From assembly GCF_030149515.1 (NCBI RefSeq), contig NZ_JASBRI010000003.1, positions 1 through 64,000 on the forward strand: DNA of 64,000 nucleotides. The letters are read 5' to 3'. Below, in pieces: positions 728 to 16,560 of this stretch. This stretch comes from Maricaulis sp. GTDB taxonomy: Bacteria; Pseudomonadota; Alphaproteobacteria; Caulobacterales; Maricaulaceae. The position numbers and the translations under genes were made by a program. A model generated the notes under the pieces. It ran no database searches. It saw only the letters and a program-made list of their open reading frames with translations, and had not been told where the DNA came from. How positions within the stretch are numbered: position 1 is the first letter of the stretch; every line of letters starts with the position of its first letter.

Positions 728-1210
728 ATGAAAACCGTTTTGACCGCCGCCGCAGCCACCGCCTTGGTCTGCGGCCTGGCCAGTGCCGAACACCACGAAA
801 GCCGCGCCAGTGCCGGTGCCGAAGCGGTGGTGCAGAGTATCTATGCGGCCTTTGCGGCTGGCGACATTCCGGCCTTCACGGCCCGTCTGGGCGCGGACAT
901 CGTCTGGAACGAGGCCGACAATTTTCCCTATGCAGACGGCAATCCCTACGAAGGGCCGGACGCGGTGATGGCGGGAGTCTTCGGCCGTATCGGTGCCGAT
1001 TGGGACGGCTTCGCTGCCACACCGGACACCATGATCGTGGACGGCAATGAGGTCGCTGTGATGGGCCGTTATACCGGGACCCACCGCGAGACCGGCAACG
1101 CCATCGACGCGCAATTCGTGCATGTCTGGACCATCGTGGACGGCCAGGCGGTCACCTTCCAGCAATACACCGATACCTGGCAGGTGCGCACCGCCAGCGG
1201 GCTGGATTAG
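728..1210 (+). CDS. Secreted NTF2-like/SnoaL-type protein
   Basis: This 160-residue protein has a clear Sec signal peptide (basic MKT start, Ala/Leu core, likely cleavage after GLASA at residue 20). The mature part follows the NTF2-like/SnoaL fold pattern: an N-terminal helix with IYAAFAAGDIPAF, then the WNEADNFPYADGNPYEGPDAV stretch and a C-terminal strand pattern ending VTFQQYTDTW. The fold is used by ketosteroid-isomerase-like enzymes and by many small-ligand binders, so no substrate can be given. A GGGAGGGG ribosome site lies just upstream. Its stop codon overlaps the stop of the convergent pseC by a few bases. Nothing ties it to glycosylation except position. Confidence 0.8.
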   Translation: MKTVLTAAAATALVCGLASAEHHESRASAGAEAVVQSIYAAFAAGDIPAFTARLGADIVWNEADNFPYADGNPYEGPDAVMAGVFGRIGADWDGFAATPDTMIVDGNEVAVMGRYTGTHRETGNAIDAQFVHVWTIVDGQAVTFQQYTDTWQVRTASGLD

Positions 1211-2373
1211 AGGCCCAGCGCCTCGCCCAGCGCGGCCGCCACACGTAACGGATCCTCATCGTCCATTCCCACGAAGAGCGGCAGCGACAGCGTGCGCGCA
1301 TAATAGTGTCCGGCTCCGGGGAGACAGGCCGCGCCGTAACGATCCCGGTAATAGGGCTGATCCGGTACAGGGATGTAGTGGACCTGGGTACCGATGCCGC
1401 GCTCGCGCAGGGCCGTCATGACGCCGGCGCGGGAGATGCCGGCACGCTCGAAATCGATGCGCACCGGATAAAGGTGCAGGCAGGGCTCGCAGTCCGGGGT
1501 TCGCGCCAAGGGCTGGACCAGGGGCGCCATGTCCACGAACACCCGGTCATAGGCCTGCGCCAGCGTCCGCCGCCGTGCCACGAATTCGGGCAGGCGTTTC
1601 AGTTGCGACAGCGCCAGTGCCGCCTGGATGTCGCTGAGCCGGTAATTCCAGCCCAGCGCCTGCATTTCATGCCACCAGGGCTCGCCCGCCCGGCGCCGGT
1701 GCCTGGAGGGATCGCGCTCGATACCATGGCTGCGCAGGCGCCGGAGACGGGCCGCCACCTCTGCGTCATCGGTCGTAACCGCCCCGCCTTCGCCGGCGGC
1801 GATCGTCTTGACCGGGTGGAAGGAAAACGTGGCCGCTGCCGACCATGCACAACTGCCTACCGGCGCCCCGCGAAAGACCGTACCCACGGCATGGCAGGCA
1901 TCCTCGACAAGCACCGCCCCGGCCGATGTCGCCTGCCGGGCCATGCCTTCGAGATCCTCGCACTGGCCGGCCAGATGGACCGGCAGCACGGCCCGCACGG
2001 GACCGTCCGCACGCTCCAGTGCCTCGGCCAGTGTGTCCGGCGTCATCAGCCCGGTCTCTGCATCCACATCAGCAAAGACGGCCTCAGCGCCGCAATAGCG
2101 CGCCGCATTGGCCGTCGCCATGAAGGTGATCGCCGGCACAATGCAACTGTCGCCCTCGCCCACACCCAGCGCCGCAAGGGCCAGATGCAGGGCAGTGGTC
2201 CCGTTTGAACAGGATACGGCATGTTCCGCTCCCACCGCGGCGGCGAAAGCGGTGTCGAAGGCGTCGACCGCCGGTCCGGTCGTCAGCCAGTCGCCGCGCA
2301 GCACGTCCACCACGGCGTCGATATCGCTGTCGTCGATGGCCTGGCGGCCATAGGGCAGGAAAGATCTGGGCAT
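1207..2373 (-). CDS. pseC: PseC, UDP-4-amino-4,6-dideoxy-N-acetyl-altrosamine transaminase
   Basis: This 388-residue enzyme is a DegT/DnrJ/EryC1 PLP-dependent sugar aminotransferase. The PLP lysine is K189 in FSFHPVKT, followed by the GEGGAVTTDD motif. SCSNGTTALHLA (residues 54-65) is the cofactor phosphate region, and VEDACHAVG holds the conserved Asp that contacts the PLP ring nitrogen. It aminates the PseB product at C4, the second step of pseudaminic acid synthesis. It lies downstream of flagellin gene A on the same strand, with a hairpin between them, so coupling is uncertain. Length matches the family. Caulobacter calls this gene flmB. Confidence 0.93.
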   Translation of the reverse strand: MPRSFLPYGRQAIDDSDIDAVVDVLRGDWLTTGPAVDAFDTAFAAAVGAEHAVSCSNGTTALHLALAALGVGEGDSCIVPAITFMATANAARYCGAEAVFADVDAETGLMTPDTLAEALERADGPVRAVLPVHLAGQCEDLEGMARQATSAGAVLVEDACHAVGTVFRGAPVGSCAWSAAATFSFHPVKTIAAGEGGAVTTDDAEVAARLRRLRSHGIERDPSRHRRRAGEPWWHEMQALGWNYRLSDIQAALALSQLKRLPEFVARRRTLAQAYDRVFVDMAPLVQPLARTPDCEPCLHLYPVRIDFERAGISRAGVMTALRERGIGTQVHYIPVPDQPYYRDRYGAACLPGAGHYYARTLSLPLFVGMDDEDPLRVAAALGEALGL

Positions 2374-2502: not shown

Positions 2503-3336
2503 CTAGCCCTGGAAGAGGCTGAGGATGGTCTGCGGCTGGGAGTTGGCGATCGACAGCGCCTGCACGCCCAGCTGCTGCTTGACCTGCAAGGATTGAAGTT
2601 TGGCGCTTTCGACCGCGAGGTCGGCATCGACCAGATCGCCCACGCCCTTGGTCAGGCTGTCCATCAGACGGTCGACGAAATTGCCGTGCGATTCGAGTTT
2701 CTTGACGTCGGAACCGAGATTGGCCAGCGCCTGGTTGACGTTCTCCAGGCTGGTCTTGATCGCGGTCACCGCATTGGTGGCCAGGGTGACCGAGCCCAGG
2801 CTGGCCGTGGCCGCCAAGGTGATGATCGCGCCACCCACACTCATGTCCTGGGTCTTCAGCGTGACGGTGCGGGCCGCGTCGGCATCGGCCAGGAATTCGA
2901 TCCCGCCGGTGATCGAGCCATCGAGAATATTGGCGCCGTCAAATTCGGCATTCTGGATGATCACCTGCACCTGTTCCAGCAGCGCCTTGAAGTCGGCGTC
3001 GTAGGCCGAACGCGAAAAGGTATCGAGCGAGGGGTCCATCGCCGCCGTCGCCTTTTCACGCATCTGGATCAGCAGGTCCGAGATCGACTCGCCGGCAGCG
3101 AGGGCCACATCGCCAATCGTCGTCGCACGGTCCAGACCGGTCGAGACCGCCTCGTAGGCGCCGATATCCGAACGCATGCCCTGGGCCACCGCATAGATGG
3201 CGGCATTGTCCTTGGCACCGGCAATCTTCAGACCCGTATTGATGCGGTTCTGGACGCCCTGCATCTCGTCATTCGTCTTGTTGAGGTTCTGGAGCGCAAT
3301 CATCGCGCCCATATTGGTGTGAACACTCATCGTCAT
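2503..3336 (-). CDS. Flagellin A, divergent paralog
   Basis: This 277-residue flagellin polymerises into the flagellar filament after export. It has the N-terminal coiled-coil region (MIALQNLNKTNDEMQGVQNR) and the C-terminal D0 region (ESAKLQSLQVKQQLGVQALSIAN). A short variable middle replaces the large D2/D3 domains, as in Caulobacter-type small flagellins. ATG at 3336 is chosen because a GGGAG site lies 8 bases upstream; ATG at 3330 is possible. A sigma-54-type promoter lies at 3398-3412. It is clearly less similar to flagellins B and C than those are to each other. Its Ser/Thr-rich middle is a plausible target of the FlmG-like enzyme. Confidence 0.95.
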   Translation of the reverse strand: MTMSVHTNMGAMIALQNLNKTNDEMQGVQNRINTGLKIAGAKDNAAIYAVAQGMRSDIGAYEAVSTGLDRATTIGDVALAAGESISDLLIQMREKATAAMDPSLDTFSRSAYDADFKALLEQVQVIIQNAEFDGANILDGSITGGIEFLADADAARTVTLKTQDMSVGGAIITLAATASLGSVTLATNAVTAIKTSLENVNQALANLGSDVKKLESHGNFVDRLMDSLTKGVGDLVDADLAVESAKLQSLQVKQQLGVQALSIANSQPQTILSLFQG

Positions 3337-3397
3337 GCGACATTCTCCCGCGTAGTCCGTAGCGCCGCCCTTCCGGCAGCGGTTCGTCCTTACAGGC

Positions 3398-3412
3398 GCA
3401 AGAGACGTGCCG
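3398..3412 (-). promoter_or_regulatory. Sigma-54-type promoter of flagellin A
   Basis: Read on the minus strand the site is CGGCACGTCTCTTGC. It has the invariant GG (-24) and GC (-12) with the correct 10-base gap. It lies about 60 bases before the flagellin start, and near-identical elements stand before the other two flagellin genes. Confidence 0.75.
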
Positions 3413-3527
3413 GTTTTGGTTAATCGCATAACTCGTTATATTTCAAATTATTATACATAGGCTCAGTTTTCACCCACAACGGGAAACGTCGTGGATTGCC
3501 GAGCAATGCGCCACCGGTAGGTCAGTT

Positions 3528-3544
3528 TTGCCGGGTTGCGGCAA
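3528..3544. promoter_or_regulatory. TTGCCG/CGGCAA inverted pair, possible FlbD (ftr-like) enhancer
   Basis: TTGCCG, five bases, CGGCAA. It stands about 115 bases upstream of the flagellin A sigma-54 promoter, the distance expected of an activator site. A lone TTGCCG half lies at 3496-3501. Comparable inverted pairs occur upstream of the other two flagellin promoters. Binding by FlbD is inference. The rest of the 346-base gap 3337-3682 holds the sigma-54 promoter and AT-rich DNA, but no gene that I can support. Confidence 0.5.
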
Positions 3545-3682
3545 GACCGGCGCGGACGCCACCCCCGGCCGTCCCGTATTTGCCCGCTCCAATGGAACCT
3601 TCGCCCCGTTCATGCGTTTTCAGACAACAGGCGGGCCTTCGGGCCCGGCCCCTGCTCCTGATGCAACAAAGGGAGGACGATC

Positions 3683-4348
3683 ATGCGTTTTACGCTCACA
3701 ACCACCAGCCTTACCACAGCCATCGCGGCCGCGGCGCTGGCCGCAGGCGCCCCCGGGATCACCCCGGCCCAGGTGGTCGACGTGACCGGTACGGTGGAAG
3801 GCCAGCTGGACACCACATCGCGGATCCAGTCGAACGGTCTGCTCAATTCCGACGTGCTCGTCGACCAGCGCAGCGGACTGGCCCTCAACACCCAACTCAT
3901 GGGCCGTCTGGGCTCCAGCCTGCCGGACTATAACCGTACGCACGCCTCGGCGCGCCTGCGCCAGGAACTCGACGCCAATACCCGCGCCTGGTCCCGCGTC
4001 AGCGCCGACCACTGGGACCGCACGAGCGTGCACGGCAGCATGCACACCCGCATGGGTACGCGCACGACCCTGCCGCGCCGCGACCGCCATGCCCGCGTGC
4101 GCGTCTATACGAGTGACGGCTATCATGTCGGCCATGTCGACCGCTATGAGGACGACCGCGTGATGGTCCGCGTCGACGGCGACGCCATGGCCGAAACCGG
4201 TACCGCCGCCAGCGCGGCCACGGACGCTGCGGCCGAAGGCCGGCTCCACGCCGTCTCCAGCAGTCAGGCGGCCCTCGACCAGGACGCCAACGCCGTGGTC
4301 CTCAGCCAAACCCGCGCCGACTTCACCTCAGCGGTGACCGGCTCGTAG
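3683..4348 (+). CDS. Exported protein of unknown function in the flagellin locus
   Basis: I do not recognise this 221-residue protein. It has a signal peptide (MRFTLTTTSL, then an Ala-rich core, likely cut near TPAQ at about residue 31). The mature part is rich in Arg, His, Asp and Thr. At about residues 132-156 it has a segment VRVYTSDGYHVGHVDRYEDDRVMVRV, which reads like a PRC-barrel-type beta repeat. The Ala/Asp/Gln-rich C-terminus is probably helical. A strong GGAGG site lies 6 bases before the ATG, and a good terminator follows the stop. It sits alone on the plus strand between flagellin A and flaG, facing away from flagellin A, so the two may share upstream control. A periplasmic or surface role is likely; nothing more can be said. 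Confidence 0.75.
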   Translation: MRFTLTTTSLTTAIAAAALAAGAPGITPAQVVDVTGTVEGQLDTTSRIQSNGLLNSDVLVDQRSGLALNTQLMGRLGSSLPDYNRTHASARLRQELDANTRAWSRVSADHWDRTSVHGSMHTRMGTRTTLPRRDRHARVRVYTSDGYHVGHVDRYEDDRVMVRVDGDAMAETGTAASAATDAAAEGRLHAVSSSQAALDQDANAVVLSQTRADFTSAVTGS

Positions 4349-4376
4349 CCGGCAAGGTCCAACGGTGAAATGACGG

Positions 4377-4412
4377 CCCCGGCAGCGAGCGAAGGCTGCC
4401 GGGGTATTTTTA
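4377..4412 (+). terminator. Rho-independent terminator
   Basis: A 9-bp perfect stem (CCCCGGCAG / CTGCCGGGG) with an 10-base loop is followed by TATTTTTAT. It stands 30 bases after the stop of the exported unknown protein. Confidence 0.85.
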
Positions 4413-4545
4413 TGTGTGGCGTCGCGTCTGTTTTGGCGCTGGAAGGGCGTTGGAATTGGTCTGGATCAGGGGGCTGCATCATCCCCCGTACAAGGCCCCT
4501 GGCATCGCCAGGAGCCCCGGTGCGACATGATGGCGAGCGCCGGGG

Positions 4546-4911
4546 TCAGGCCATGCGGTTGACCAGGCCAGCCGTTCGGGTGCGCAGGTATTCCATCAGG
4601 TCGGCGTATTTTTCGGGGGGCCAGCGGCGTACGGTTTCGCCGGTATCCTGGTCGACCATGAGATAGACATAGTCGCCGGACGTGTCGTCCTGGAGGATTT
4701 TCAGGCGGGAATTGTTCAGGGCGTCGTGAGCCAGGCGTTCGATCTCGGCGGCCCGATGTTCGCGATTGTCCGACGCCGCGGCGGGCCTGTCGGCCTTCTC
4801 GAGCGGTTCGACCCGCGCCGCGGTCTCGCGCAGGCGGTCGGAATGGACATCTTTGCTCTCGGTGTAGCCTGCCACCGGTGCCGGTCTTGGATTGAACCCC
4901 GTCTCTGCCAT
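4546..4911 (-). CDS. flaG: FlaG-like flagellar protein
   Basis: This 121-residue protein has a charged, disordered N-terminal half. The C-terminal half (from about residue 55) matches the FlaG pattern: a helix, then LKILQDDTSGDYVYLMVDQDTGETVRRWPPEKYADL, with the D-x-x-TGE-x-(V/I)R-x-(I/W)PPE core. FlaG proteins influence filament length and are often encoded next to flagellin or fliD. Here the gene follows flagellin B on the same strand, 102 bases downstream, with a hairpin between them. No strong ribosome site is seen before the ATG. The residue pattern, not context alone, supports the call. Confidence 0.75.
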   Translation of the reverse strand: MAETGFNPRPAPVAGYTESKDVHSDRLRETAARVEPLEKADRPAAASDNREHRAAEIERLAHDALNNSRLKILQDDTSGDYVYLMVDQDTGETVRRWPPEKYADLMEYLRTRTAGLVNRMA

Positions 4912-4978
4912 TGTTTCATCGCTGACGATAAGGTCGCCAGTGCCTCAAAAAAACTCGCGTCAGGCGCGGAAGGCGGAC

Positions 4979-4999
4979 GGCGGGGCCCGAGGCCCCGCC
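4979..4999 (-). terminator. GC stem-loop after flagellin B
   Basis: A perfect 9-bp stem (GGCGGGGCC/GGCCCCGCC, CGA loop) lies just after the flagellin B stop. The T-run on the minus strand (4947-4953) is about 25 bases further on and follows a small second stem, so flaG may be reached by read-through. Confidence 0.55.
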
Positions 5000-5013
5000 A
5001 TCCCATCCCGCGA

Positions 5014-5838
5014 TTAACGGAAGTAGCCCAGGATCGTGCTGGGAGCCGAGTTGGCGATCGACAACGCCTGCACGCCCAGCTGCTGCTTGACCTGCAGCGA
5101 CTGGAGGCGGGCGCTTTCCTTCGCCAGGTCCGCATCGACCAGATTGCCGATACCCTTTTCCAGGGCGTCGGACAGCTTGCCGACGAAGCTCTTGTGAACG
5201 TCCAGCGACTTCGACGCCGTGCCGAGCTTGGCGAGCGAAGCGTTCAGGTTGTTCAGCGAGGTTTCGATCGTGGTGACAAGCGTGGACGCATCGCCCGCCG
5301 AGGCGAACGAAGCCGTCGCAGCCACGGTCACTGTACCGCCGCCGAGCGTCAGGTTGGCGTCGGAGATGGTGATCGTGTTGGAGCCGTCGGCATTGGCCAG
5401 GGCCGAGATCGAGGTCACGGAACCGTTGATCAGGTTCGTGCCGTTGAATTCGGCATTGGCGGTGATCGTGGTGATCTGGTCGCGAAGCGCCTTGAAGTCT
5501 TCATTCAGGGCGGTGCGGGACGCCGAGTCGAGCGATGTGTCGGAAGCGGCCAGGGCCTTTTCCTTCATCTCGACCAGCAGGTCGGAGATCGCTTCACCGG
5601 CAGCCAGGGCCACGTCCGTGGTCGACTGGGCGAGATCCAGCGAGTTGCGGACGGCGCCATAACCATTGACGTCCGAACGCATTTTCTGGGCGATCGCGTA
5701 GATACCGCCATTGTCCTTCGCGGACGACACGGCCAGGCCGGTGTTGATGCGGCTTTGAACCTGCTGCAGGTCCTTGTTGGTCTGATTGAGGTTTTGCAGC
5801 GCAACCATGGCGCCGGCATTGGTGTTGATGGTAGCCAT
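5014..5838 (-). CDS. Flagellin B
   Basis: This 274-residue small flagellin has conserved N-terminal (INTNAGAMVALQNLNQTN) and C-terminal (ARLQSLQVKQQLGVQALSIAN) filament-core helices. The short central part is rich in Ser and Thr, the likely O-glycosylation sites. ATG at 5838 follows an AGGG element at 7-base spacing; the reading frame runs on upstream but lacks flagellin features. The central part is nearly identical to flagellin C at both protein and DNA level, which indicates a recent duplication or gene conversion. A sigma-54-type promoter lies 75 bases upstream. Confidence 0.96.
   Translation of the reverse strand: MATINTNAGAMVALQNLNQTNKDLQQVQSRINTGLAVSSAKDNGGIYAIAQKMRSDVNGYGAVRNSLDLAQSTTDVALAAGEAISDLLVEMKEKALAASDTSLDSASRTALNEDFKALRDQITTITANAEFNGTNLINGSVTSISALANADGSNTITISDANLTLGGGTVTVAATASFASAGDASTLVTTIETSLNNLNASLAKLGTASKSLDVHKSFVGKLSDALEKGIGNLVDADLAKESARLQSLQVKQQLGVQALSIANSAPSTILGYFR
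5260..5605 (-). repeat. Flagellin duplicate block, copy in gene B
   Basis: This stretch of flagellin B is closely matched by 6446-6791 in flagellin C at a constant offset of 1186 bases. Most differences are silent. Ends are approximate. Confidence 0.8.
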
Positions 5839-5912
5839 TTCTTGGCCCTCTCCATTCTGGTGTTGTACCGGGCGTTTTGCCCGACAGGTCTTCTGACCCG
5901 TCCCCATGAAGA

Positions 5913-5927
5913 GCAAGGCCGGGGCCA
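5913..5927 (-). promoter_or_regulatory. Sigma-54-type promoter of flagellin B
   Basis: On the minus strand the site is TGGCCCCGGCCTTGC, with TGG at -24 and TTGC at -12 at the standard gap. It lies 75 bases before the start codon, as for flagellin C. Confidence 0.75.
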
Positions 5928-6069
5928 GTTGCGCCTTGACTGGCTTGGTTAATCACCCCCCGCCTGATTCGGTGCGTGCATCGGATGCATTCCCGCCATC
6001 TGCGGTAACTATTGCGCACATGCGGCTGGGCAGAAATTGCCGCCCCAGGACGCCAAACCGGCAGGAAAA

Positions 6070-6087
6070 TTTTGCCGGTCGGCAAAA
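6070..6087. promoter_or_regulatory. TTTTGCCG-GT-CGGCAAAA inverted repeat, possible FlbD site
   Basis: An 8-bp perfect inverted repeat with a 2-base centre lies about 145 bases upstream of the flagellin B sigma-54 promoter. It shares the TTGCCG/CGGCAA halves with the elements at 3528 and 7210. An enhancer role for the NtrC-type regulator FlbD is inferred from spacing and recurrence. Confidence 0.5.
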
Positions 6088-8166: not shown

Positions 8167-9969
8167 ATGATGCAAAACGCCCCGGCCCTGGACCTGGACG
8201 CGGAACTCTCGGCTGACGCCGAAATCGTCCGGAACGAAGCGCGCGACGCGGTCCCCCTGGGACGTGAAGCACTGAAGGTCGATGCCCAGCTTGTCCGGAT
8301 CCCCGAGAGCAAGCGGCGCCAGTACCAGAAGGTCGTCGCACAGGCCAAGCGGGCACTCAAACTTTCCGCCGAGAACGCCCATTCCGACGCGGCGCGCATT
8401 GCCTTCAAGGCGGTCCAGCTGGCCCCGGACCTCGCCCTGACCAATCATGTCATGGGGCTGATGCTCTACCGCCTGGGCCGGCTGTCGCGCGCGCTCGACT
8501 TCTTCCAGCGTGCCTGGGAGCTCGATCCCAACGATGCGGAAATCTACCAGAAGCTGGGCCTGGTCGCCTGGAAGCTGGACATGCTGGAGGCGGCGGAAAA
8601 ATTCTACCGCATCGAATGCCGGCTGGCGCCGGACAAGACGGATGGCATTATCAATCTGGCGGGTGTGCTGCGCGACCAGGGCAAGTTCGAGGAAGCCATC
8701 GAGATCCTGCGCACGGCGATCTACGCCAATCAGGAGAGCTACGAGCTCTGGAACTCGATGGGCACCGTGATCAATGACAGCGGCAAGCCCGAGGAGGCCT
8801 CCACCTTTTATCTCGAGGCACTTCGCCTGAAGCCGGAATACGGCCGGGCCCACAACAATATGGCCAATGTCTACGAATTGCTCGGCGAGCCGGAAAAAGC
8901 CCTGCCGCACTATGAGGAAGCGCTGAAAGACCCTGCCGACGAAATGGAAGAGGCGACCATGCGTCATGGCCGGTCCATGGTGCTTCTGGCCGCCGGCCGG
9001 ATCGCGGAAGGCTGGGCAGCCAACGAGGCGCGCCTCGACCCCAACCGCGCCCAGGCAACGCTGTTTTCCATGAAAATGCCGATGTGGGACGGTGTGGACC
9101 CGGGCGAGATCCGGGGCAAGACCGTCGTGCTCGTCGGCGAGCAGGGCCTGGGTGACGAGGTTCTTTTCATGAACATCGTCAAGGATATGCTCGAGGCGAT
9201 CGGACCGGACGGCCAGCTCCGTATTGCCTGTGAATACCGCCTCATGCCGATCGTCGGACGCTCCTTCCCCGAAGCGGTCGTCGGTAACCACCTCTCGGCC
9301 ACGATCGAGGGGCGGGAAATCCGCACCACGCCCAAGCTGGACGCCGGCGCGGATTTCTGGACCCCGATGGCGACCCCGCTGCGCGCCTTCCGCCCGACAC
9401 TGGACAGTTTCCCAAAGGAGCCGGGCTTCCTGAAGGCCAGTCCGGAATATCTGGATCAGTTCAAGGCCCAGCTCGACACGTTCGGCAACGGCCTGAAGGT
9501 GGGTATCCTCTGGAAATCCCTGCGCATGGATGCCCAGCGCTCGAAATTCTTCTCGGCCTTCGATGCCTGGGAGGGCGTTCTGAAGACGCCGGGTGTCGAT
9601 TTCGTCAATCTGCAATACGGGCAGGTCGAGGACGAACTGGCCCTGGCACGGGAACGCTTCGGCGTCGACATTCACCAGCCGCGCGATATCGACCTGAAGA
9701 TGGACCTCGACAAGGTCGCCGCCCTGGCCGCGTCCTGCGATCTGGTTCTCGGCCCGATGAACGCGACCTCCAACCTCGCGGCCGCCTGCGGCGGCAAGGT
9801 CTGGTTCATCCACGCCCGGTCCTCGACCTGGACCCTGCTCGGCTCGGACCGTCAGCACTGGTACCCGCAGACGCGCTCCTTCTTCGGCAACGGGTTCCAG
9901 GACTGGGACAATACGTTCACGCGCATCGCCTGCGAACTCGCCTCTCTGGCGTCCGGGCACAACGGTTAA
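8167..9969 (+). CDS. flmG: FlmG-like flagellin glycosyltransferase (TPR + GT-B domain)
   Basis: This 600-residue protein has TPR repeats from about residue 55 to 265 (for example LGRLSRALDFFQRAWELDPND and GKPEEASTFYLEALRLKPEY). The C-terminal glycosyltransferase-like domain (about 275-600) contains GEQGLGDEVLFMN, VGILWKS and a late ATSNLAAACGGKVW segment. This is the domain order of Caulobacter FlmG, in which the TPR part binds flagellin and the GT part transfers pseudaminic acid to it. It lies divergent from flbT and leads an operon that contains pseF, pseG and pseI. The next gene begins 14 bases after its stop. Other TPR-glycosyltransferases have the same plan, but the context strongly favours flagellin as acceptor. 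Two adjacent ATG codons (8167 and 8170) are equally possible starts. Confidence 0.85.
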   Translation: MMQNAPALDLDAELSADAEIVRNEARDAVPLGREALKVDAQLVRIPESKRRQYQKVVAQAKRALKLSAENAHSDAARIAFKAVQLAPDLALTNHVMGLMLYRLGRLSRALDFFQRAWELDPNDAEIYQKLGLVAWKLDMLEAAEKFYRIECRLAPDKTDGIINLAGVLRDQGKFEEAIEILRTAIYANQESYELWNSMGTVINDSGKPEEASTFYLEALRLKPEYGRAHNNMANVYELLGEPEKALPHYEEALKDPADEMEEATMRHGRSMVLLAAGRIAEGWAANEARLDPNRAQATLFSMKMPMWDGVDPGEIRGKTVVLVGEQGLGDEVLFMNIVKDMLEAIGPDGQLRIACEYRLMPIVGRSFPEAVVGNHLSATIEGREIRTTPKLDAGADFWTPMATPLRAFRPTLDSFPKEPGFLKASPEYLDQFKAQLDTFGNGLKVGILWKSLRMDAQRSKFFSAFDAWEGVLKTPGVDFVNLQYGQVEDELALARERFGVDIHQPRDIDLKMDLDKVAALAASCDLVLGPMNATSNLAAACGGKVWFIHARSSTWTLLGSDRQHWYPQTRSFFGNGFQDWDNTFTRIACELASLASGHNG

Positions 9970-9983
9970 GCGGGATACCGGCC

Positions 9984-10613
9984 ATGCCCAGCCAGCACCT
10001 TATCCGGATGCTCGACGGCTCGGCGGCCGCGTTCAAAGGCGGGCGCGACTATGTACACGGATCGGATATCGCGACTTTCGCGGTAGGGACCGCCACCGAA
10101 ACGCCCGGCCTTGCCGCCCTCCGCCGCATCGAGTTTCATCGCCCCCTGGTGTCACGCGGCGTGCTCTTCGCGGAGCCGCAGCTCGCCAAGGGCGCATCGG
10201 CGGAATTCTGCGCCACAGGCAGTTTTTCCATGGGTGACGGCGGCGAACTCCCCTTCGCGATCTTCCCGGCTCCCCTGCCCGTGCTGCGCACCGATCTTCC
10301 CTTCGACGAGGGCGCCCTTTGGCCGCAATGCGAGGTAGATGCCGGCGCGCAGTCGGTCAGGACGCAACAGATCCATACGCTAACCTTCGAGGAACATCTG
10401 ACCAGCATGATGAAGCTGCTGTGCCGGACGGTGGCGCCCACTTTCGGCAAATGGTGGTTCGTTCGCCTGACCCGGAATGGCGAGACACCGCCAGCTGGCA
10501 CCGAACTGGAACTTCGCGTCCGCCGTCTGACGGCGGACCGATTCGTGGCAGCATCCATCCTCGCCGGCGGGAAGCCTTGGGGCGGGATCGAATTTATCGG
10601 GAGGCAGGAATGA
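9984..10613 (+). CDS. Unknown protein, possibly hotdog fold, in the Pse acyl cassette
   Basis: I do not recognise this 209-residue protein by name. It has no signal peptide or membrane segment. Two halves each read like a hotdog unit: residues about 20-90 (YVHGSDIATFAV, then LRRIEFHRPLV) and about 125-209 (helix HTLTFEEHLTSMMKLLC, then strands ending AGGKPWGGIEF). Hotdog proteins act on acyl-ACP or acyl-CoA as dehydratases or thioesterases. The stop overlaps the KAS III start (ATGA) and an acyl carrier protein follows, so a step on an ACP-bound acyl chain is an attractive inference. Fold and function are not certain. Confidence 0.6.
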   Translation: MPSQHLIRMLDGSAAAFKGGRDYVHGSDIATFAVGTATETPGLAALRRIEFHRPLVSRGVLFAEPQLAKGASAEFCATGSFSMGDGGELPFAIFPAPLPVLRTDLPFDEGALWPQCEVDAGAQSVRTQQIHTLTFEEHLTSMMKLLCRTVAPTFGKWWFVRLTRNGETPPAGTELELRVRRLTADRFVAASILAGGKPWGGIEFIGRQE

Positions 10614-11551
10614 CATCGCAGCGGACCTGGATCAGATCCATCGGCACCCGGCTCGGTTCAGCCCGCGTCGACAATGTCCGCCAGGCGGAGACCTTCGGGA
10701 AGGATGCGGAATTCCTCGATACGAGGATCGGCGCTCGTTGGCTACCGCAAGCCGACGATACGGAGACCGCGGTCACGCTGGGCGAAGCCGCCTCCCGCGA
10801 GGCGATCGAAGAAGCCGGTATCGCGCCGGAGCGGATCGGCATCTTGATTTTCGTCAGCCAAAATCCGGATTTCGGCGGCCTGCCGCATAATTCGGCAATA
10901 CTACAGGACCGGCTGGGTCTGCCAACCTCAAGTGCCTGCTTCGACGTCGGCCTCGGCTGTTCGGGCTATGTTTACGCTCTCTCCATAGCCACAGCCATGA
11001 TGCAAGCTTTGCGACTGGACCAAGGGTTGATCGTCACCTCGGACCAATACCGAGCCCAACTCAGGGAAGGCGATGTGAACACGCAGATGCTGTTCGGCGA
11101 TGGCGCGACGGCCACGGTTTTGAGCCGCGACGAGGCCGAACTCGAGATCGTCGCAACGGAGCTTGGAACCAACGGCAATCATGCGTCCGCTCTGCAGCGC
11201 AGCGCCAACTGCATCGCCATGAACGGCCGCACGATTTTCGGCTTTTCGCGCAAGACAGTTCCTCTGGCGATCCGTCAGTTCACGGAACGGTATGGCCTGT
11301 CGCTTGATGAGGTGGATACGGTACTGCTGCACCAAGGCAGCCGGGCAATCGTCGAGGAGATTACAAAGGAACTCGGCCTCGATGTGACGAAAGTTCCAAT
11401 TGAGATGGGGGAGACGGGCAATACCGTCTCCTCCTCCATCCCCTTCCTTTTGAAACCGCGACTGAAGGATTGCGAGATCAAGACCGTATTGGCCACAGGG
11501 TTCGGCGTCGGCCTGTCCTGGGGCACCGCCTGGATGAGGAGGACATCCTGA
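10610..11551 (+). CDS. 3-oxoacyl-ACP synthase III (KAS III/FabH-like)
   Basis: This 313-residue thiolase-fold enzyme has the full KAS III triad: C117 in DVGLGCSGY, H241 in LLHQGS and N271 in ETGNTVSSS. The C-terminal GFGVGLSWGTAWM segment matches FabH. KAS III enzymes condense an acyl-CoA with malonyl-ACP to give a 3-oxoacyl-ACP. The ATG overlaps the stop of the preceding gene by four bases, and the acyl carrier protein starts two bases after the stop, so the three are translated as a block. Placed inside a pseudaminic acid operon, it is unlikely to be the housekeeping FabH. It probably makes a short 3-oxoacyl chain for sugar acylation. Confidence 0.9.
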   Translation: MTSQRTWIRSIGTRLGSARVDNVRQAETFGKDAEFLDTRIGARWLPQADDTETAVTLGEAASREAIEEAGIAPERIGILIFVSQNPDFGGLPHNSAILQDRLGLPTSSACFDVGLGCSGYVYALSIATAMMQALRLDQGLIVTSDQYRAQLREGDVNTQMLFGDGATATVLSRDEAELEIVATELGTNGNHASALQRSANCIAMNGRTIFGFSRKTVPLAIRQFTERYGLSLDEVDTVLLHQGSRAIVEEITKELGLDVTKVPIEMGETGNTVSSSIPFLLKPRLKDCEIKTVLATGFGVGLSWGTAWMRRTS

Positions 11552-11552
11552 G

Positions 11553-11780
11553 ATGAATGACGCAGGCATCAAGACGACCATCGCCATTATCGAGAAGGTC
11601 GCAGAGGAGGAGTATCCGGACGCGACGGCCAACACCATGATCGACGAGCTGTCCATCGACAGTCTCGATCTGTTCACGGTGATCGGGGATCTTGAGGAAG
11701 AAACCGGCCGTTCGATGAGCGATGAGGAAATGGGCCGAGTCGCCACTATTGGCGATCTGGTGAAACACTTCTACGGCTGA
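11553..11780 (+). CDS. Dedicated acyl carrier protein
   Basis: This 75-residue acidic protein has the carrier-protein signature IDSLDLF. S37 is the expected attachment site for 4'-phosphopantetheine. The four-helix pattern and length fit a type II ACP, but it is clearly not the usual AcpP sequence. It follows the KAS III gene immediately and precedes pseF. It probably holds the acyl chain that the LpxD-like transferase passes to the amino sugar. A phosphopantetheinyl transferase must be supplied from elsewhere. Confidence 0.92.
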   Translation: MNDAGIKTTIAIIEKVAEEEYPDATANTMIDELSIDSLDLFTVIGDLEEETGRSMSDEEMGRVATIGDLVKHFYG

Positions 11781-11821
11781 CCCCGCAGAATCGGCTGCTA
11801 TCCAGATTTGCGGAGGACAGT

Positions 11822-12532
11822 TTGGCACTCGCTGTGATCCCCGCCCGCGGGAACTCCAAGCGCATACCGAGGAAGAATATCCGGCCCTTCGCCGGCAAAC
11901 CGATGATCGCCTGGCCGATCGAGGTGGCCCTCGCCAGCGGCAGTTTCGACCGCGTCATCGTTTCCACCGGCGATGACGAAGTGGCCGACATCGCGCAGGC
12001 CCACGGCGCGGAAGTCCCATTCCGCCGGCCGGCGGAACTCTCGCACGACAAAGTCCCCACCCGTCCGGTCATGGTCCACGCAATCGAACAGGTACAAGCC
12101 CTGCACGGCCCGGTCGAACACGTGTGCTGCATCTATCCGACAGCGCCCCTGCTCGGCGCCGACACGATTCGGAGTAGCAAGCAGGAGCTCATCCAGACCG
12201 GAGCCGACTTCGTGTTCTCCTGCACTACCTTCCCCTATCCCATCCTTCGTGCCCTGCGGATCACGGATGACGGCTCGATGGAAATGATCTGGCCCGAACA
12301 CCTCAAGACCCGCTCGCAGGACCTCGAACAAGCTTATCATGATGCGGGGCAATTCTACTGGGGCCGTGCCGACGCCTTCTTGGAAGGCAAGCCCATGTTC
12401 GGTCCGGGCTCTCGCCCCTGGGTCCTGCCGCGCCATCTCGTGCAGGATATCGACACGCCAGAAGACTGGATTCGTGCCGAGCTGGCTTTCCAAGTGCTCA
12501 GAGGACGTTCGGATGATCGTCTTTCGTTGTGA
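11822..12532 (+). CDS. pseF: PseF, CMP-pseudaminic acid synthetase
   Basis: This 236-residue cytidylyltransferase activates the nonulosonic acid with CTP, the last step before transfer. The N-terminal signature IPARGNSKRIPRKNI is that of CMP-sialate-type synthetases, followed by VIVSTGDDE and the IYPTAPLL region. HLVQDIDTPEDW near the end is typical of PseF. The start is a TTG at 11822, supported by a GGAGG site 5 bases upstream; no ATG gives the full domain. Its end overlaps pseG by 20 bases. Caulobacter FlmC and legionaminic/sialic acid synthetases are relatives, and the operon supports Pse. Confidence 0.93.
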   Translation: MALAVIPARGNSKRIPRKNIRPFAGKPMIAWPIEVALASGSFDRVIVSTGDDEVADIAQAHGAEVPFRRPAELSHDKVPTRPVMVHAIEQVQALHGPVEHVCCIYPTAPLLGADTIRSSKQELIQTGADFVFSCTTFPYPILRALRITDDGSMEMIWPEHLKTRSQDLEQAYHDAGQFYWGRADAFLEGKPMFGPGSRPWVLPRHLVQDIDTPEDWIRAELAFQVLRGRSDDRLSL

Positions 12533-13580
12533 CGCAAACGCGAGGATTGGCTTCGGCCATCTGATGCGCTGTAGGCAGCTGTCGAACGAACTCCGACGGC
12601 GCGGCCACATGACGGCCATCTATGGCGATCTGCCGGATAGCGTAAATGATGACGATCCGCCACCTTTTGACCGGCTACAGCGGGCGTCGGGCTGGAACGG
12701 CAGACGCCGAGATGTGAAGGAGCTGATGGAGTTCGCGGCGTCCGTCGGTGTCAGTGCCTTTATCATCGACCACCCCGGCGCAGACGGCGAATATCAGTCC
12801 CTACTCAAATCGCGGGGCGTACGCTGGTTACATTTTATCGGACAGCCTGCCGGGCCGCTGTTGGCCGATCTCATTTTCTGCGCCAATGCGGCGGCCGATC
12901 CGACCGCCTTCCGGCGCCTTGAGCGCGGCCCCGAAACGAAGTTGCTGGTAGGTTTGGAACACGCCCTGCTGCGGCCCCAGTTCCGGGGGCTCGAGAAAAG
13001 GATCACGAAAGAGCGGGTCGACCGGGTCTTCGTTAGTTTCGGCGGCGGATCCGATCGAGGGGCATTCCGGAAATGTCTTCCCGTCCTGCTGTCACAAGCA
13101 GACGACACTTGCCGTTTCACGCTCGCCGTCGGCAGCGGCAATCCAGAGCTGAACTGGGTCAAGGATTTCGCCGCGGGGCGGCGGGACCGGATCGATCTGA
13201 GGGTCGACGAGATGCGGATCGCGGAATGCATGCTAGTTTCGGATCTTGCGGTCACTGCGTCGGGCACCACCACGCTGGAAGCCGCCGCCTGCGGACTACC
13301 CATGATACTGCTAGCGATTGCCGACAACCAGGTCGAGCCGGCTCGGGCCTGGGCACGGCGCGGCGCAGCGCTTTACCTCGGCGAGATCGATGCGCTCGTC
13401 CCACGCATGCTGGCCAATGCTTTCCGCGAAATGCAGGCGCCTGCGCTGCGCGCGCGGCAAACACGGGCGCTCTACGAAACCGGTGTTGACGGATATGGTG
13501 TCACGCGCGTCGCCGATGCCGTCGAGCGCTGCCTGCTGCGGCCGGAAGGTGTCGGGGAAACGAAGGAACAGCCGTCATGA
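12513..13580 (+). CDS. pseG: PseG, UDP-sugar hydrolase of pseudaminic acid synthesis
   Basis: This 355-residue protein has a GT-B-like fold and removes UDP from the diacylated 2,4-diamino-trideoxy-altrose intermediate. The start shows FRCDANARIGFGHLMRC, with the G-x-GH-x-MRC motif and H16. VFVSFGGGSD and SGTTTLEAAACGLPMILLAIADNQ are the expected nucleotide-binding motifs. The ATG at 12513 overlaps pseF and is preferred to further upstream codons, which would read through pseF in another frame. The C-terminal stop overlaps the next gene by 4 bases (ATGA). No GNAT (PseH) domain is fused to it, although some PseG proteins carry one. Confidence 0.92.
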   Translation: MIVFRCDANARIGFGHLMRCRQLSNELRRRGHMTAIYGDLPDSVNDDDPPPFDRLQRASGWNGRRRDVKELMEFAASVGVSAFIIDHPGADGEYQSLLKSRGVRWLHFIGQPAGPLLADLIFCANAAADPTAFRRLERGPETKLLVGLEHALLRPQFRGLEKRITKERVDRVFVSFGGGSDRGAFRKCLPVLLSQADDTCRFTLAVGSGNPELNWVKDFAAGRRDRIDLRVDEMRIAECMLVSDLAVTASGTTTLEAAACGLPMILLAIADNQVEPARAWARRGAALYLGEIDALVPRMLANAFREMQAPALRARQTRALYETGVDGYGVTRVADAVERCLLRPEGVGETKEQPS

Positions 13581-14509
13581 GCGATCCGGAGCGCTATCCG
13601 CTGTCACAGCCGATGCGGTTGTCCGAGCTATGCGCCCAAATGGACGCATCCGGCACGTTCGTGGGCGAAGCGGACCCCGTACTCACGAGCGCAGCCGCCT
13701 TGGATCGCGGCGACGAGACCTCCATCAGCTTCTGCCGCTTCGGCGGGGAGGTGGGCCGGAGCCGTATCCTCGCATCTCGGGCCGCCGTCATCGTCTGCAG
13801 CGACGCCCCCGCACCGGTCCCCGGACGGGTCTTCATTCAGGTCGCCGATCCGCGCGGCTGGTTCATCGACGCACTCCACCGACTCAATCCGGACGACACT
13901 GAAGCCTCCATCGACGCGACGGCCCGTATCGGCAACGCAGCACTCTTGGGCGATGATATACACGTCGGCGCCCATGCCGTGATCGAAGCTGGCGCCCGGA
14001 TCGGCAGCGGCTGCCGGATCGGCGCCTTCGCCTACATATCGGGCGCCAGCATTCTAGAAGCTGGCGTCACCGTACAGGCGCATGTCGCCATCGGCACGCA
14101 CGGCCTGTCCTTTCACAAGCGGCCGGACGGGTCCCCGCTATTCTTCCCGCATATGGGCAAGGCGATTGTACGTGAAGGCGCGGCGATCGGCACGCATACG
14201 ACTATCGTACGGGGTATTCTCGACAATACCGAGATCGGTGCCGGTGCACAGATTGGTAATCATGTGAATGTCGGACACAATTGCGCGATCGGACGGGAGG
14301 TCTTCATCTCCTCCGGAACCGTACTGACGGGCAGCGTTCGTATCGGCGACCGAACGCGCCTCGCCGCCGGGGTGACGGTGACAGCGCATTGCAGCATCGG
14401 TCAGGATGCCCATGTCGGGCTCGGCTCCGTCGTCGTCAAGGATATTGCGGACGGCAAGCGCGTCTTCGGCAACCCCGCCCGCCCCCTGCCTACAATGCGC
14501 GAGTTCTGA
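13577..14509 (+). CDS. LpxD-like hexapeptide acyltransferase, possible PseH replacement
   Basis: This 310-residue protein resembles UDP-3-O-acylglucosamine N-acyltransferase (LpxD). The N-terminal part (about 13-90) includes RGDETSISFCRF and resembles the LpxD uridine-binding domain. A left-handed beta-helix of hexapeptide repeats runs from about 108 to 300. The segment IGTHTTIVRG and NHVNVGHNCAIG align with the LpxD active region, and H234 is the likely catalytic base. LpxD takes acyl chains from acyl carrier protein. An ACP and a KAS III are encoded in the same operon, and no GNAT-type PseH is seen, so I infer that it N-acylates the 4-amino sugar between PseC and PseG. It is translationally coupled to pseG. 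A housekeeping LpxD is unlikely here. Confidence 0.82.
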   Translation: MSDPERYPLSQPMRLSELCAQMDASGTFVGEADPVLTSAAALDRGDETSISFCRFGGEVGRSRILASRAAVIVCSDAPAPVPGRVFIQVADPRGWFIDALHRLNPDDTEASIDATARIGNAALLGDDIHVGAHAVIEAGARIGSGCRIGAFAYISGASILEAGVTVQAHVAIGTHGLSFHKRPDGSPLFFPHMGKAIVREGAAIGTHTTIVRGILDNTEIGAGAQIGNHVNVGHNCAIGREVFISSGTVLTGSVRIGDRTRLAAGVTVTAHCSIGQDAHVGLGSVVVKDIADGKRVFGNPARPLPTMREF

Positions 14510-14541
14510 CCGCACCCATTTTTGATCCGGAGCCTTGAGAC

Positions 14542-15588
14542 ATGCAGATCGACGGACGCCAGATTGGCCGGGACCAGCGTCCCTACATCATCGCCGAGAT
14601 GTCCGGCAATCATAACCAGTCCCTCGACCGTGCCTTTGCGCTGGTCGATGCGGCCGCGGCGGCCGGTGCGGACGCGCTCAAACTGCAGACCTACACGCCC
14701 GACACAATGACGCTCGACCTCGCAGAGGGCGAATTCTTCATCTCCGATCCTGACTCGATTTGGAAGGGACAGAGCGCGCACCAGCTCTACGAGCGGGCCT
14801 ATACGCCTTGGGATTGGCACGCACCGATCATGGCGCGTGCCAAAGGCCACGGCATAGCCTGTTTTAGCTCGCCCTTTGACGAAAGCGCCGTGGATTTCCT
14901 GGAAAGCCTCGACGTACCGGCCTACAAGATCGCTTCCTTCGAGTGTATCGACCTGCCCCTGATCCGGCGCGTCGCCCAGACCGGCAAACCAGTGATTATT
15001 TCCACCGGCATGGCAACCGTGTCGGAGATCGACGAAGCGGTTTCGGCCGCGCGGGAAAACGGTGCAGCCGACATTGTGCTGTTGAAATGCACCAGCACCT
15101 ACCCCGCCTCTCCCGCCGATACGAATGTGCGCACCGTCGCACACATGCGCGATCTATTCGGCTGCGAGACTGGCCTGTCGGACCATACGATGGGGGTCGG
15201 TGCGGCGATCGCCGCCGTCGCCCTCGGGGCGAGCGTGATCGAGAAGCATTTCACGCTCGACCGGGCCGGTGGCGGCGTCGATTCCACCTTCTCTCTGGAG
15301 CCGGCGGAACTTTCGAGCCTGGTGACGGAAACCGAGCGTGCGTGGCAGGCCCTTGGCAAGATCCACTACGGCCCGGCGACCGAAAAGGAAGCCCGCAGCC
15401 GGCGGCGGCGGCGCTCCCTCTATATCGCAAAAGACCTGCAGGCCGGCGACACGCTGACGCCGGAAAACCTGCGCCGCATCCGGCCCGGCCACGGTCTTCC
15501 GCCGAAGTATTTCGACGTCGTGCTCGGCCGCCGTGTCAACCGATCCGTCAAGCGCGGCACGCCGCTGAGCTGGGACTTGCTGCAATAG
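14542..15588 (+). CDS. pseI: PseI, pseudaminic acid synthase
   Basis: This 348-residue NeuB-family enzyme condenses the deoxy-diacylamino hexose with phosphoenolpyruvate to give the nonulosonic acid. The N-terminal TIM barrel starts with YIIAEMSGNHNQSLDRA and contains DALKLQTYTPDTMT and CFSSPFDESAVDFLE. SDHTMGVGAAIAAVALGASVIEKHFT holds metal and substrate residues. The C-terminal SAF (antifreeze-like) domain covers about 290-348. SGNHN, rather than the motif of sialic acid synthases, favours PseI. It is the last gene of the eight-gene run that starts with the FlmG-like gene. Confidence 0.93.
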   Translation: MQIDGRQIGRDQRPYIIAEMSGNHNQSLDRAFALVDAAAAAGADALKLQTYTPDTMTLDLAEGEFFISDPDSIWKGQSAHQLYERAYTPWDWHAPIMARAKGHGIACFSSPFDESAVDFLESLDVPAYKIASFECIDLPLIRRVAQTGKPVIISTGMATVSEIDEAVSAARENGAADIVLLKCTSTYPASPADTNVRTVAHMRDLFGCETGLSDHTMGVGAAIAAVALGASVIEKHFTLDRAGGGVDSTFSLEPAELSSLVTETERAWQALGKIHYGPATEKEARSRRRRRSLYIAKDLQAGDTLTPENLRRIRPGHGLPPKYFDVVLGRRVNRSVKRGTPLSWDLLQ

Positions 15589-15672: not shown

Positions 15673-16560
15673 ATGCGTTTCGAAGGTACCGATCAATACG
15701 TCGCTGACGACGAACTGAGCGCCGCGGTCAACGCCGCCATCGCTCTGGAGCGTCCGCTGCTCGTCAAGGGCGAGCCGGGCACGGGGAAGACCGAGCTGGC
15801 CAAACAGGTCGCACGCGGCATGGGCATGCCGCTGATCGAATGGCACATCAAATCGACGACGAAGGCCCGCCAGGGGCTCTACGAGTACGATGCGGTGGCG
15901 CGCCTGCGCGACAGCCAGTTGGGCGACGACCGCGTCCACGACATCGACAACTACATCCGCCGCGGCAAGCTGTGGGAAGCCTTCACGGCGCCGGAGCGCT
16001 CGGTGCTGCTGATCGACGAGATCGACAAGGCGGATATCGAATTCCCCAACGATCTCCTGCAGGAGCTCGACCGGATGGAATTCCATGTCTACGAGACCGG
16101 CGAGAGCGTAAAGGCGGAAAACCGCCCCGTGGTCATCATCACCTCGAACAATGAGAAGGAATTGCCGGACGCCTTCCTGCGCCGCTGCTTCTTCCACTTC
16201 ATCGCCTTCCCGGACGAGGCGACGATGAAACGGATCGTCGAGGTCCACTTTCCGGGCCTGAAGGGCCGGCTGCTGTCGGACGCCCTGAAGCTTTTCTACG
16301 AGATCCGCGACGTGCCGGGCGTGAAGAAGAAGCCCTCCACATCCGAGCTGCTGGACTGGCTGAAGCTTCTCCTGGTGGAGGATGTCGATCCGGCCGTACT
16401 GTCCGAGCGCGACCCGCGCAAGCTGATCCCGCCGCTGCACGGTGCCCTGCTGAAGAACGAGCAGGATGTGATGCTGTTCGAAAAACTCGCCTTCATGGCG
16501 CGGCGCCAGGGCGGCCCGGGCACGCCCGGCGGCGGACCGCGAGGACCGGGAGCGGCTTGA
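15673..16560 (+). CDS. MoxR-family AAA+ ATPase
   Basis: This 295-residue AAA+ protein has Walker A GEPGTGKT (33-40), Walker B VLLIDEIDK (111-119) and the sensor segment VVIITSNNEKELPDAFLRRC. MoxR ATPases act as chaperones that mature metalloenzymes or other complexes, together with a VWA-domain protein. The matching CoxE-like VWA protein is encoded 6 kb downstream (22555-23730) instead of next door. The C-terminal tail is rich in Gly and Pro. The ATG follows a GGGGG run; the gene is preceded by an 84-base gap after pseI and ends at a strong terminator. Confidence 0.9.
   Translation: MRFEGTDQYVADDELSAAVNAAIALERPLLVKGEPGTGKTELAKQVARGMGMPLIEWHIKSTTKARQGLYEYDAVARLRDSQLGDDRVHDIDNYIRRGKLWEAFTAPERSVLLIDEIDKADIEFPNDLLQELDRMEFHVYETGESVKAENRPVVIITSNNEKELPDAFLRRCFFHFIAFPDEATMKRIVEVHFPGLKGRLLSDALKLFYEIRDVPGVKKKPSTSELLDWLKLLLVEDVDPAVLSERDPRKLIPPLHGALLKNEQDVMLFEKLAFMARRQGGPGTPGGGPRGPGAA

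Follow-up and report, generated by a model that had tools for sequence, protein, structure and literature searches.

Which enzyme supplies the N-acyl group of a flagellar sugar when a pseudaminic acid (Pse) gene cluster has no recognizable PseH, and what purpose do acyl carrier protein (ACP) and ketoacyl synthase genes serve in that cluster? Both questions are raised by an eight-gene block in Maricaulis sp. (assembly GCF_030149515.1). The window analyzed, a 64,000-nucleotide stretch of contig NZ_JASBRI010000003.1 (C13), begins at the start of the contig, inside pseB; the genome is 89.8% complete, so all absences from it are provisional. At 8167-15588, the block encodes a FlmG-like protein, a protein here called U, a 3-ketoacyl-ACP synthase III (KAS III), an ACP, PseF, a PseG-like protein, an LpxD-like transferase, and PseI. 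We consider it probable that, in flagellar Pse synthesis, the acetylation step gave way to a portable N-acylation module fed by ACP and that the locus makes a variant CMP-pseudaminic acid for flagellin. The donor, the acceptor, the identity of the acyl group, and the role of U are proposals within that explanation.

A compact pse operon beside flagellin genes

An earlier note, made from the DNA letters alone, described eight tightly packed genes on one strand with ATGA overlaps at 10610 and 13577, and the block is as described. All eight reading frames are open, and no gap exceeds 41 bp. U follows flmG after 14 bp and overlaps the KAS III gene by 4 bp (ATGA at 10610); 1 bp separates the latter from the ACP gene, and 41 bp lead from there to pseF. 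The pseF and pseG genes overlap by 20 bp, pseG and the LpxD-like gene by 4 bp (ATGA at 13577), and pseI begins after a further 32 bp. Three flagellin genes adjoin the operon. A promoter and terminator scan gave scores no better than those of shuffled sequences. GC content at third codon positions is 0.71-0.79 in the block, slightly below flmG (0.83) and the open reading frame (ORF) at 15673 (0.86); pseC (0.78) and the ORF at 17940 (0.76) fall within the same range.

Pathway genes were assigned with NCBIfam models. PseI passes TIGR03586 (489.2 bits; cut-off 340.25), PseF passes TIGR03584 (311.2; cut-off 205.7), and PseC passes its model (478.7; cut-off 423.5). PseG fails TIGR03590 (137.7; cut-off 153.55) and is the sole PseG match in the genome, which likewise holds a single PseI at a threshold of E 1e-80. 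The genome search agrees with the earlier note in finding no GNAT-type PseH, as the best TIGR03585 score, 30.5 bits, falls short of the cut-off (93.1). The protein with that score was rejected as a hidden PseH on account of the low score and of its neighbors (EAL-domain- and SURF1-like ORFs by reading), which are unlike sugar genes.

The FlmG-like protein is identified by tetratricopeptide repeat (TPR) Pfam matches and by its position beside the flagellin genes; the comparison was with the FlmG-like protein of same-genus G054, and transfer activity is a prediction.

The LpxD-like gene occupies the pseH position

The surroundings of pseI were compared across the bacterial family, sampled as 137 genomes including that of the window. 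PseI exceeds its cut-off in 38 of these (own included), and PseH in 12, which carry 13 such genes. We excised 39 pseI stretches: the 37 other genomes whose PseI exceeds the cut-off gave 38, and a genome whose PseI falls short of it gave one. On the upstream side of pseI the stretches extend for about 9 kb and on the downstream side for 2 kb; contig ends truncate six of them (L080, L086, L090, L102, L104, and L108), and absences hold for the stretches only. Neighboring genes were classed with purpose-built profiles. PseH is encoded immediately upstream of pseI in 13 of the 39 stretches. A formyltransferase gene lies upstream in five, adjacent to pseI in four and three ORFs away from it in L077; PF00551 confirmed four of the five proteins. 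Ten stretches have a gene for a NeuD-type protein downstream of pseI. One such protein (L106) was confirmed as TIGR03570; that of the below-cut-off genome (L110) scores lower, and an ORF separates its gene from pseI. The remaining 11 stretches were unclassified. KAS III, ACP, and U were found in none of the 39. In these stretches an iterated LpxD-like profile picks up the ten NeuD-type proteins and nothing else, and the NeuD profile fits them better.

Six relatives within the genus have a PseI that passes its cut-off; PseH accompanies it in four of them and a formyltransferase in two. In G054, for example, the order is flagellins, FlbT, FlmG, a cytidylyltransferase (minus strand), PseG, PseH, and PseI. 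The LpxD-like gene of the window lies between pseG and pseI, where relatives have pseH or a formyltransferase gene. This position is the strongest support for the LpxD-like protein replacing PseH.

Several neighborhoods hold features of their own. In L077 (same-genus G1018), FAD amine-oxidase-like, methyltransferase, and WbqC-like genes stand between the formyltransferase gene and pseI (3028-6071). A 461-amino acid frame in L072 (6554-7939) has about 285 unassigned N-terminal residues before its PseH domain. In L091, from G054, a second PseG-like gene lies just downstream of pseI (10112-11050), its N-terminal half PseG-like and its C-terminal half MurG/MGT-like. A 47% match of the window PseG to this protein was discarded as a short local match; direct comparison gave 31% over 99 residues.

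The acyl enzymes retain expected residues

The LpxD-like protein fails both the LpxD model TIGR01853 (157.6 vs 242.5 bits) and the NeuD/VioB-family model TIGR03570 (99.4 vs 160.8 bits), and its match to the N-terminal domain model PF04613 reaches 21.1 vs 30.8 bits. It shares with the LpxD of lipid A synthesis the beta-helix family and an alignment over most of its length (residues 13-303 of 310 against Escherichia coli LpxD, 3eh0), but it lies below the LpxD cut-off and is without the C-terminal tail. His234 is paired in the alignment with chain residue 239 of 3eh0, which we take to be the catalytic histidine, and is kept in a multi-protein alignment. LpxD takes acyl groups from acyl-ACP. The protein was rejected as the cell's lipid A LpxD, a gene on contig C14 passing that cut-off (271.8 bits).

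In a search with the LpxD-like protein at E 1e-30, 249 genomes of the order yielded only the protein itself and a match in G081, which was read as a true LpxD with adjoining FabZ- and LpxA-like ORFs; at E 1e-36, 385 genomes of the class yielded its own genome, G312, and G352. A scan of genome contigs with the protein gave one short match, in a Sphingobacterium. An LpxD-like protein is also encoded on a haloarchaeal plasmid (Haloprofundus, L024 7989-8813); haloarchaea are not expected to make lipid A. In L020 and L023, LpxD-like genes cluster with N-acetyl sugar amidotransferase and HisH/HisF-type genes (annotated in L023, by sequence reading in L020).

In the KAS III, which scores below the FabH subfamily cut-off, Cys117, His241, and Asn271 align with their counterparts in FabH sequences of solved structure, so the Cys-His-Asn set, presumably the catalytic triad, is intact as the earlier note had it. 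The serine of the IDSL motif reported for the ACP is likewise present, and the protein scores 29.8 bits against the PF00550 cut-off of 20.8. At E 1e-40, KAS III has two matches in its own genome (G000), one each in 16 other genomes of the genus, and none in 2 of the 19. The other genomic copy (C1:47636-48613) leads us to reject the window KAS III as the cell's only FabH. By family chemistry, KAS III condenses acyl-CoA with malonyl-ACP; alone it is expected to yield a short chain, and the "lipid-like" modification named in the earlier note is unsupported. On a plasmid of Pseudomonas veronii, a KAS III 40% identical to that of the window is encoded next to polyhydroxybutyrate genes (L113 9992-10921).

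Even with E values of up to 10 admitted, protein U matches no Pfam family; it has no NCBIfam match either, and a PDB search returned nothing better than E 0.64. The suggestion that it is a hotdog protein drew divided results. Its AlphaFold2 model is of low confidence (pLDDT 42.6), and the Foldseek neighbors of that model are mostly FabZ, FabA, and thioesterases (best E 0.02), which is a hint, but an hhalign profile comparison of U from three loci with FabZ does not support the relation. U possibly has a hotdog fold, as far as this model can tell.

A four-gene module recurs elsewhere

U, KAS III, ACP, and a beta-helix transferase are encoded contiguously in two other loci. In L019, from the alphaproteobacterium G312, the order is NeuB-family synthase (below both curated cut-offs), LpxD-like protein, U, KAS III, and ACP; identity to the window is 37-41% for the LpxD-like protein, depending on the method, and 41% for KAS III. 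In L112, a Pontibrevibacter nitratireducens plasmid, the order is ACP, a 315-amino acid beta-helix protein (28% over 171 residues to the LpxD-like protein of the window), U, and KAS III, followed by an FdtA/QdtA-type cupin and a DegT aminotransferase. The U homologue is 27% identical in L019 (E 5e-9) and weak in L112 (22.6% to U of the window, 27.4% to that of L019). All three loci share the 4-bp overlap of U and KAS III. In L019 and L112, the beta-helix gene also overlaps U by 4 bp, forming one block with KAS III and ACP; the window differs from these contiguous arrangements in that pseF and pseG stand between the ACP and LpxD-like genes.

The module is rare. U was found in 2 of 385 genomes of the class (own and G312), 1 of 398 of the phylum (own only), and 1 of 11 of the order of G312 (G312 only), and in 1 of 72,556 plasmid records, none being found with the U of the window as query. 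De-N-acetylase genes lie near the LpxD-like genes in L019 (4340-5047, a PIG-L match) and L020 (12963-13646, by sequence resemblance); judged by gene content, this suggests deacetylation followed by re-acylation in those clusters.

No ketoreductase is annotated in the 25-kb L112 stretch, and none was recognized by ORF reading in the 7.1 kb of L019. The 3-hydroxybutyryl group named as a candidate in the earlier note needs a ketoreductase; a search that took in these three blocks, but not the remainder of the window or of the genome, recognized none. A broader proposal, which we hold tentatively and at somewhat less than even odds, is that U, KAS III, ACP, and a beta-helix acyltransferase form a portable, horizontally moving module for amino-sugar N-acylation, with U as a new protein family. 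Such a module, having no ketoreductase dedicated to it, would make its acyl group itself, giving a 3-oxoacyl or 2-enoyl amide instead of a 3-hydroxybutyryl one. It would serve sugar pathways unrelated to one another, namely Pse for flagellin, a different nonulosonate, and a nucleotide-aminosugar, and in the flagellar case would have brought co-adapted PseG, PseI, and PseF along.

A divergent block on an apparently native background

Pairwise identities divide the locus. Flagellin is 90%, FlbT 85%, and FlmG 72% identical to the proteins at the corresponding flagellin-flbT locus of G054, and PseC is 70% identical to that of same-genus G088. The 3' part of pseB, a contig-edge fragment, encodes a product 72-77% identical to PseB-labeled proteins of three relatives (77% for G088) and 52% to that of a fourth. 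By contrast, PseI is 52-54% identical to six same-genus PseI proteins that share 72-96% among themselves, and PseG is 28-32% identical to four that share 49-58%. The cytidylyltransferase of G054 is of another kind (PF02348) and is encoded on the opposite strand. From these identities, the downstream pathway (PseG and PseI) looks foreign, and flagellin, FlmG, PseB, and PseC look native. Given the low identity of PseI and PseG against the high identity of flagellin, FlbT, FlmG, PseB, and PseC, the enzymes after the acyl step apparently arrived with the acyltransferase. In Acinetobacter baumannii, the pair psaDE (nucleotidase and acetyltransferase) has its counterpart in psaGH of a module listed for 3-hydroxybutanoyl-Pse (PMC9676051), which by similar logic may serve as a precedent for swapping an acyltransferase together with its nucleotidase partner.

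The interval between pseB and pseC in the window holds a SnoaL-like ORF (PF12680, 728-1210). In G088, the same interval holds pseG, a formyltransferase gene, pseI, and a methyltransferase gene; an older pse block may have been lost from the window at this place.

Table 1. Positions of the operon genes and of the upstream pse genes in the window
Feature	Coordinates	Strand	Basis
FlmG-like, predicted flagellin glycosyltransferase, TPR N-terminal half	8167..9969	+	TPR Pfam matches
U, 209 amino acids, possible hotdog fold, gene coupled to KAS III	9984..10613	+	no family match
Extra KAS III (FabH-type), second genomic copy	10610..11551	+	PF08541/PF08545, Cys-His-Asn
Acyl carrier protein, 75 amino acids, IDSL serine	11553..11780	+	PF00550
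PseF, CMP-pseudaminate synthetase, TTG start	11822..12532	+	TIGR03584
PseG-like UDP-sugar hydrolase, divergent	12513..13580	+	TIGR03590, below cut-off
LpxD-like left-handed beta-helix transferase, pseH slot	13577..14509	+	TIGR01853, below cut-off
PseI, pseudaminate synthase	14542..15588	+	TIGR03586
PseC aminotransferase, apparently native type	1207..2373	-	over cut-off; 70% to same-genus G088
pseB 3' part, truncated by contig start	1..661	+	frame open from base 2 to stop at 661

A proposed route and its competitors

PseB and PseC make UDP-4-amino-4,6-dideoxy-beta-L-AltNAc in the established pathway and would supply it here. KAS III would condense an acyl-CoA with malonyl carried by the dedicated ACP, and U may act on or escort the product. 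The LpxD-like enzyme, in place of PseH, would then take the acyl group over from ACP and attach it to the sugar at the 4-amino group. The divergent PseG, PseI, and PseF would then carry the altered sugar to CMP-Pse5Ac7-acyl, which native FlmG would attach to flagellin. On this proposal, the whole downstream block would be a horizontally acquired replacement on a native background of flagellin, FlmG, PseB, and PseC.

An ACP-fed, LpxD-like substitute for PseH, as the earlier note envisaged, is favored by the position between pseG and pseI and by the recurrence of the module, but a set of observations counts against it. The C-terminal tail, which helps ACP binding in LpxD, is absent from the LpxD-like proteins of the window, L019, and L020 and present in six of the six LpxD proteins compared, and a deep tree of the transferases lacks resolution. 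The L020 transferase (30% identical) belongs to a nonulosonate-type cluster in which no KAS III, ACP, or U was recognized among ORFs of at least 150 amino acids (an ACP would be shorter). The ten NeuD-type hexapeptide proteins encoded after pseI, without KAS III, ACP, or U, mean that a hexapeptide transferase there need not signify acyl-ACP. No ketoreductase was detected among the eight genes with Pfam or NCBIfam. Absence of PseH is weak evidence in itself, since the 25 relatives that likewise lack PseH over the cut-off all have PseI over theirs. In Caulobacter crescentus, a triple mutant of flmH and two paralogues is described that does not show the phenotype of neuB or flmG loss (PMC7591256).

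Much of this fits an alternative in which the LpxD-like protein replaced PseH as an ordinary sugar N-acetyltransferase that depends on acetyl-CoA, the sugar is plain Pse5Ac7Ac, and KAS III, ACP, and U acylate something else (another sugar position, O-acylation, or flagellin itself). The ten NeuD-type relatives, the L020 cluster, the missing tail, and the separation of the ACP from the LpxD-like gene by pseF and pseG all point this way. However, the overlap of the beta-helix gene with U in L019 and L112, within the block of KAS III and ACP, ties the transferase to the acyl genes, and a changed acyl group better explains the divergence of PseG and PseI; we regard the acetyl alternative as unlikely. 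Less probable again is a working cassette whose acylated sugar goes to a surface polysaccharide instead of flagellin. Several glycosyltransferase genes in the L112 plasmid region and an adjoining ORF in L019 read as an ABC transporter are consistent with such a fate, but the window operon starts 14 bp after flmG and beside three flagellin genes, and with one PseI in the genome flagellin would be left with no other source of Pse, unless one is missing from the assembly. Decay or idleness of the block, with Pse not made, is highly improbable: PseG falls below its cut-off and the 5' end of pseB lies outside the contig, but the eight frames are open and the expected residues are kept in KAS III, ACP, and the LpxD-like protein.

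Relation to known systems

A close parallel to ACP-fed acylation of a flagellar sugar comes from the viosamine island of Pseudomonas syringae, which holds vioS (KAS III), vioR (ketoreductase), acp, and vioB (acyltransferase) and makes a sugar for flagellin whose 4-amino group bears N-(3-hydroxy-1-oxobutyl) (PMC3927599). The same text reports that vioR and vioB mutants are without the flagellin sugar, that vioS and acp were assigned by homology, and that P. aeruginosa PAK has homologues of the island genes (PMC3927599). Island and window share KAS III and ACP genes and a hexapeptide-type acyltransferase serving a 4-amino sugar for flagellin, and in the window these genes are in one operon by spacing, as in a viosamine-type cassette, with pseF and pseG intervening. 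They differ in that the island uses dTDP-viosamine, a ketoreductase, and VioB, whereas the window has Pse, no ketoreductase among its genes, U, and an LpxD-like transferase. A cassette of the viosamine kind, with a reductase, also occurs on a Burkholderia glumae plasmid (L115: flagellin, fliD, fliT, TPR, vioA, KAS III, ACP, then an SDR oxidoreductase and a NeuD-type acetyltransferase).

Non-acetyl acyl groups on N-7 of Pse have precedents. Pse with 7-N-3-hydroxybutanoyl is ascribed to psb genes in Shigella boydii type 7 (PMC3628348) and to the K-antigen of Sinorhizobium fredii HH103 (PMC9037385), and in A. baumannii the module psaABCGHF is listed for it (PMC9676051, PMC6333632), acyltransferase and nucleotidase being swapped as a pair. 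These systems differ from the window in serving capsule, O-antigen, or K-antigen rather than flagellin, and the accessible portions mention no dedicated KAS III or ACP. The Aeromonas group II flagellin island resembles the window in pairing an ACP gene with pse genes (PMC7874193), but its partial description includes a 3-oxoacyl-ACP reductase, an AMP-dependent synthetase, luxE/luxC, and pseH, and mentions no KAS III or LpxD-like gene. In the Shewanella sfm system, flagellin changes in mass when a gene predicted to encode a 3-oxoacyl-ACP reductase is lost (PMC3765264). C. crescentus, an alphaproteobacterium, offers FlmG-type transfer of Pse to flagellin as the likeness; it differs in an acetyl-type FlmH and in FlmC, said in the accessible text to have no homology to PseF (PMC7591256).

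Given the viosamine island (PMC3927599) and 3-hydroxybutanoyl-Pse of A. baumannii (PMC9676051), the view in the earlier note that such a modification had not been described was too strong. A literature search of partial coverage found no description of Pse combined with KAS III, ACP, and an LpxD-like protein; the combination appears to be new, and each part is known elsewhere.

Implications for flagellin glycosylation

The locus puts a name to a rare four-gene module and is a case in which the joint exchange of an acyltransferase and the enzymes acting after it can be tested. U represents a protein family without a Pfam or NCBIfam model and is a candidate for assay. Within one bacterial family, the N-acyl step beside pseI emerges as a swappable position in Pse synthesis, filled by acetyl, formyl, and now probably an ACP-derived acyl group. 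Such a swap could vary the surface chemistry of the filament without a change of flagellin or FlmG.

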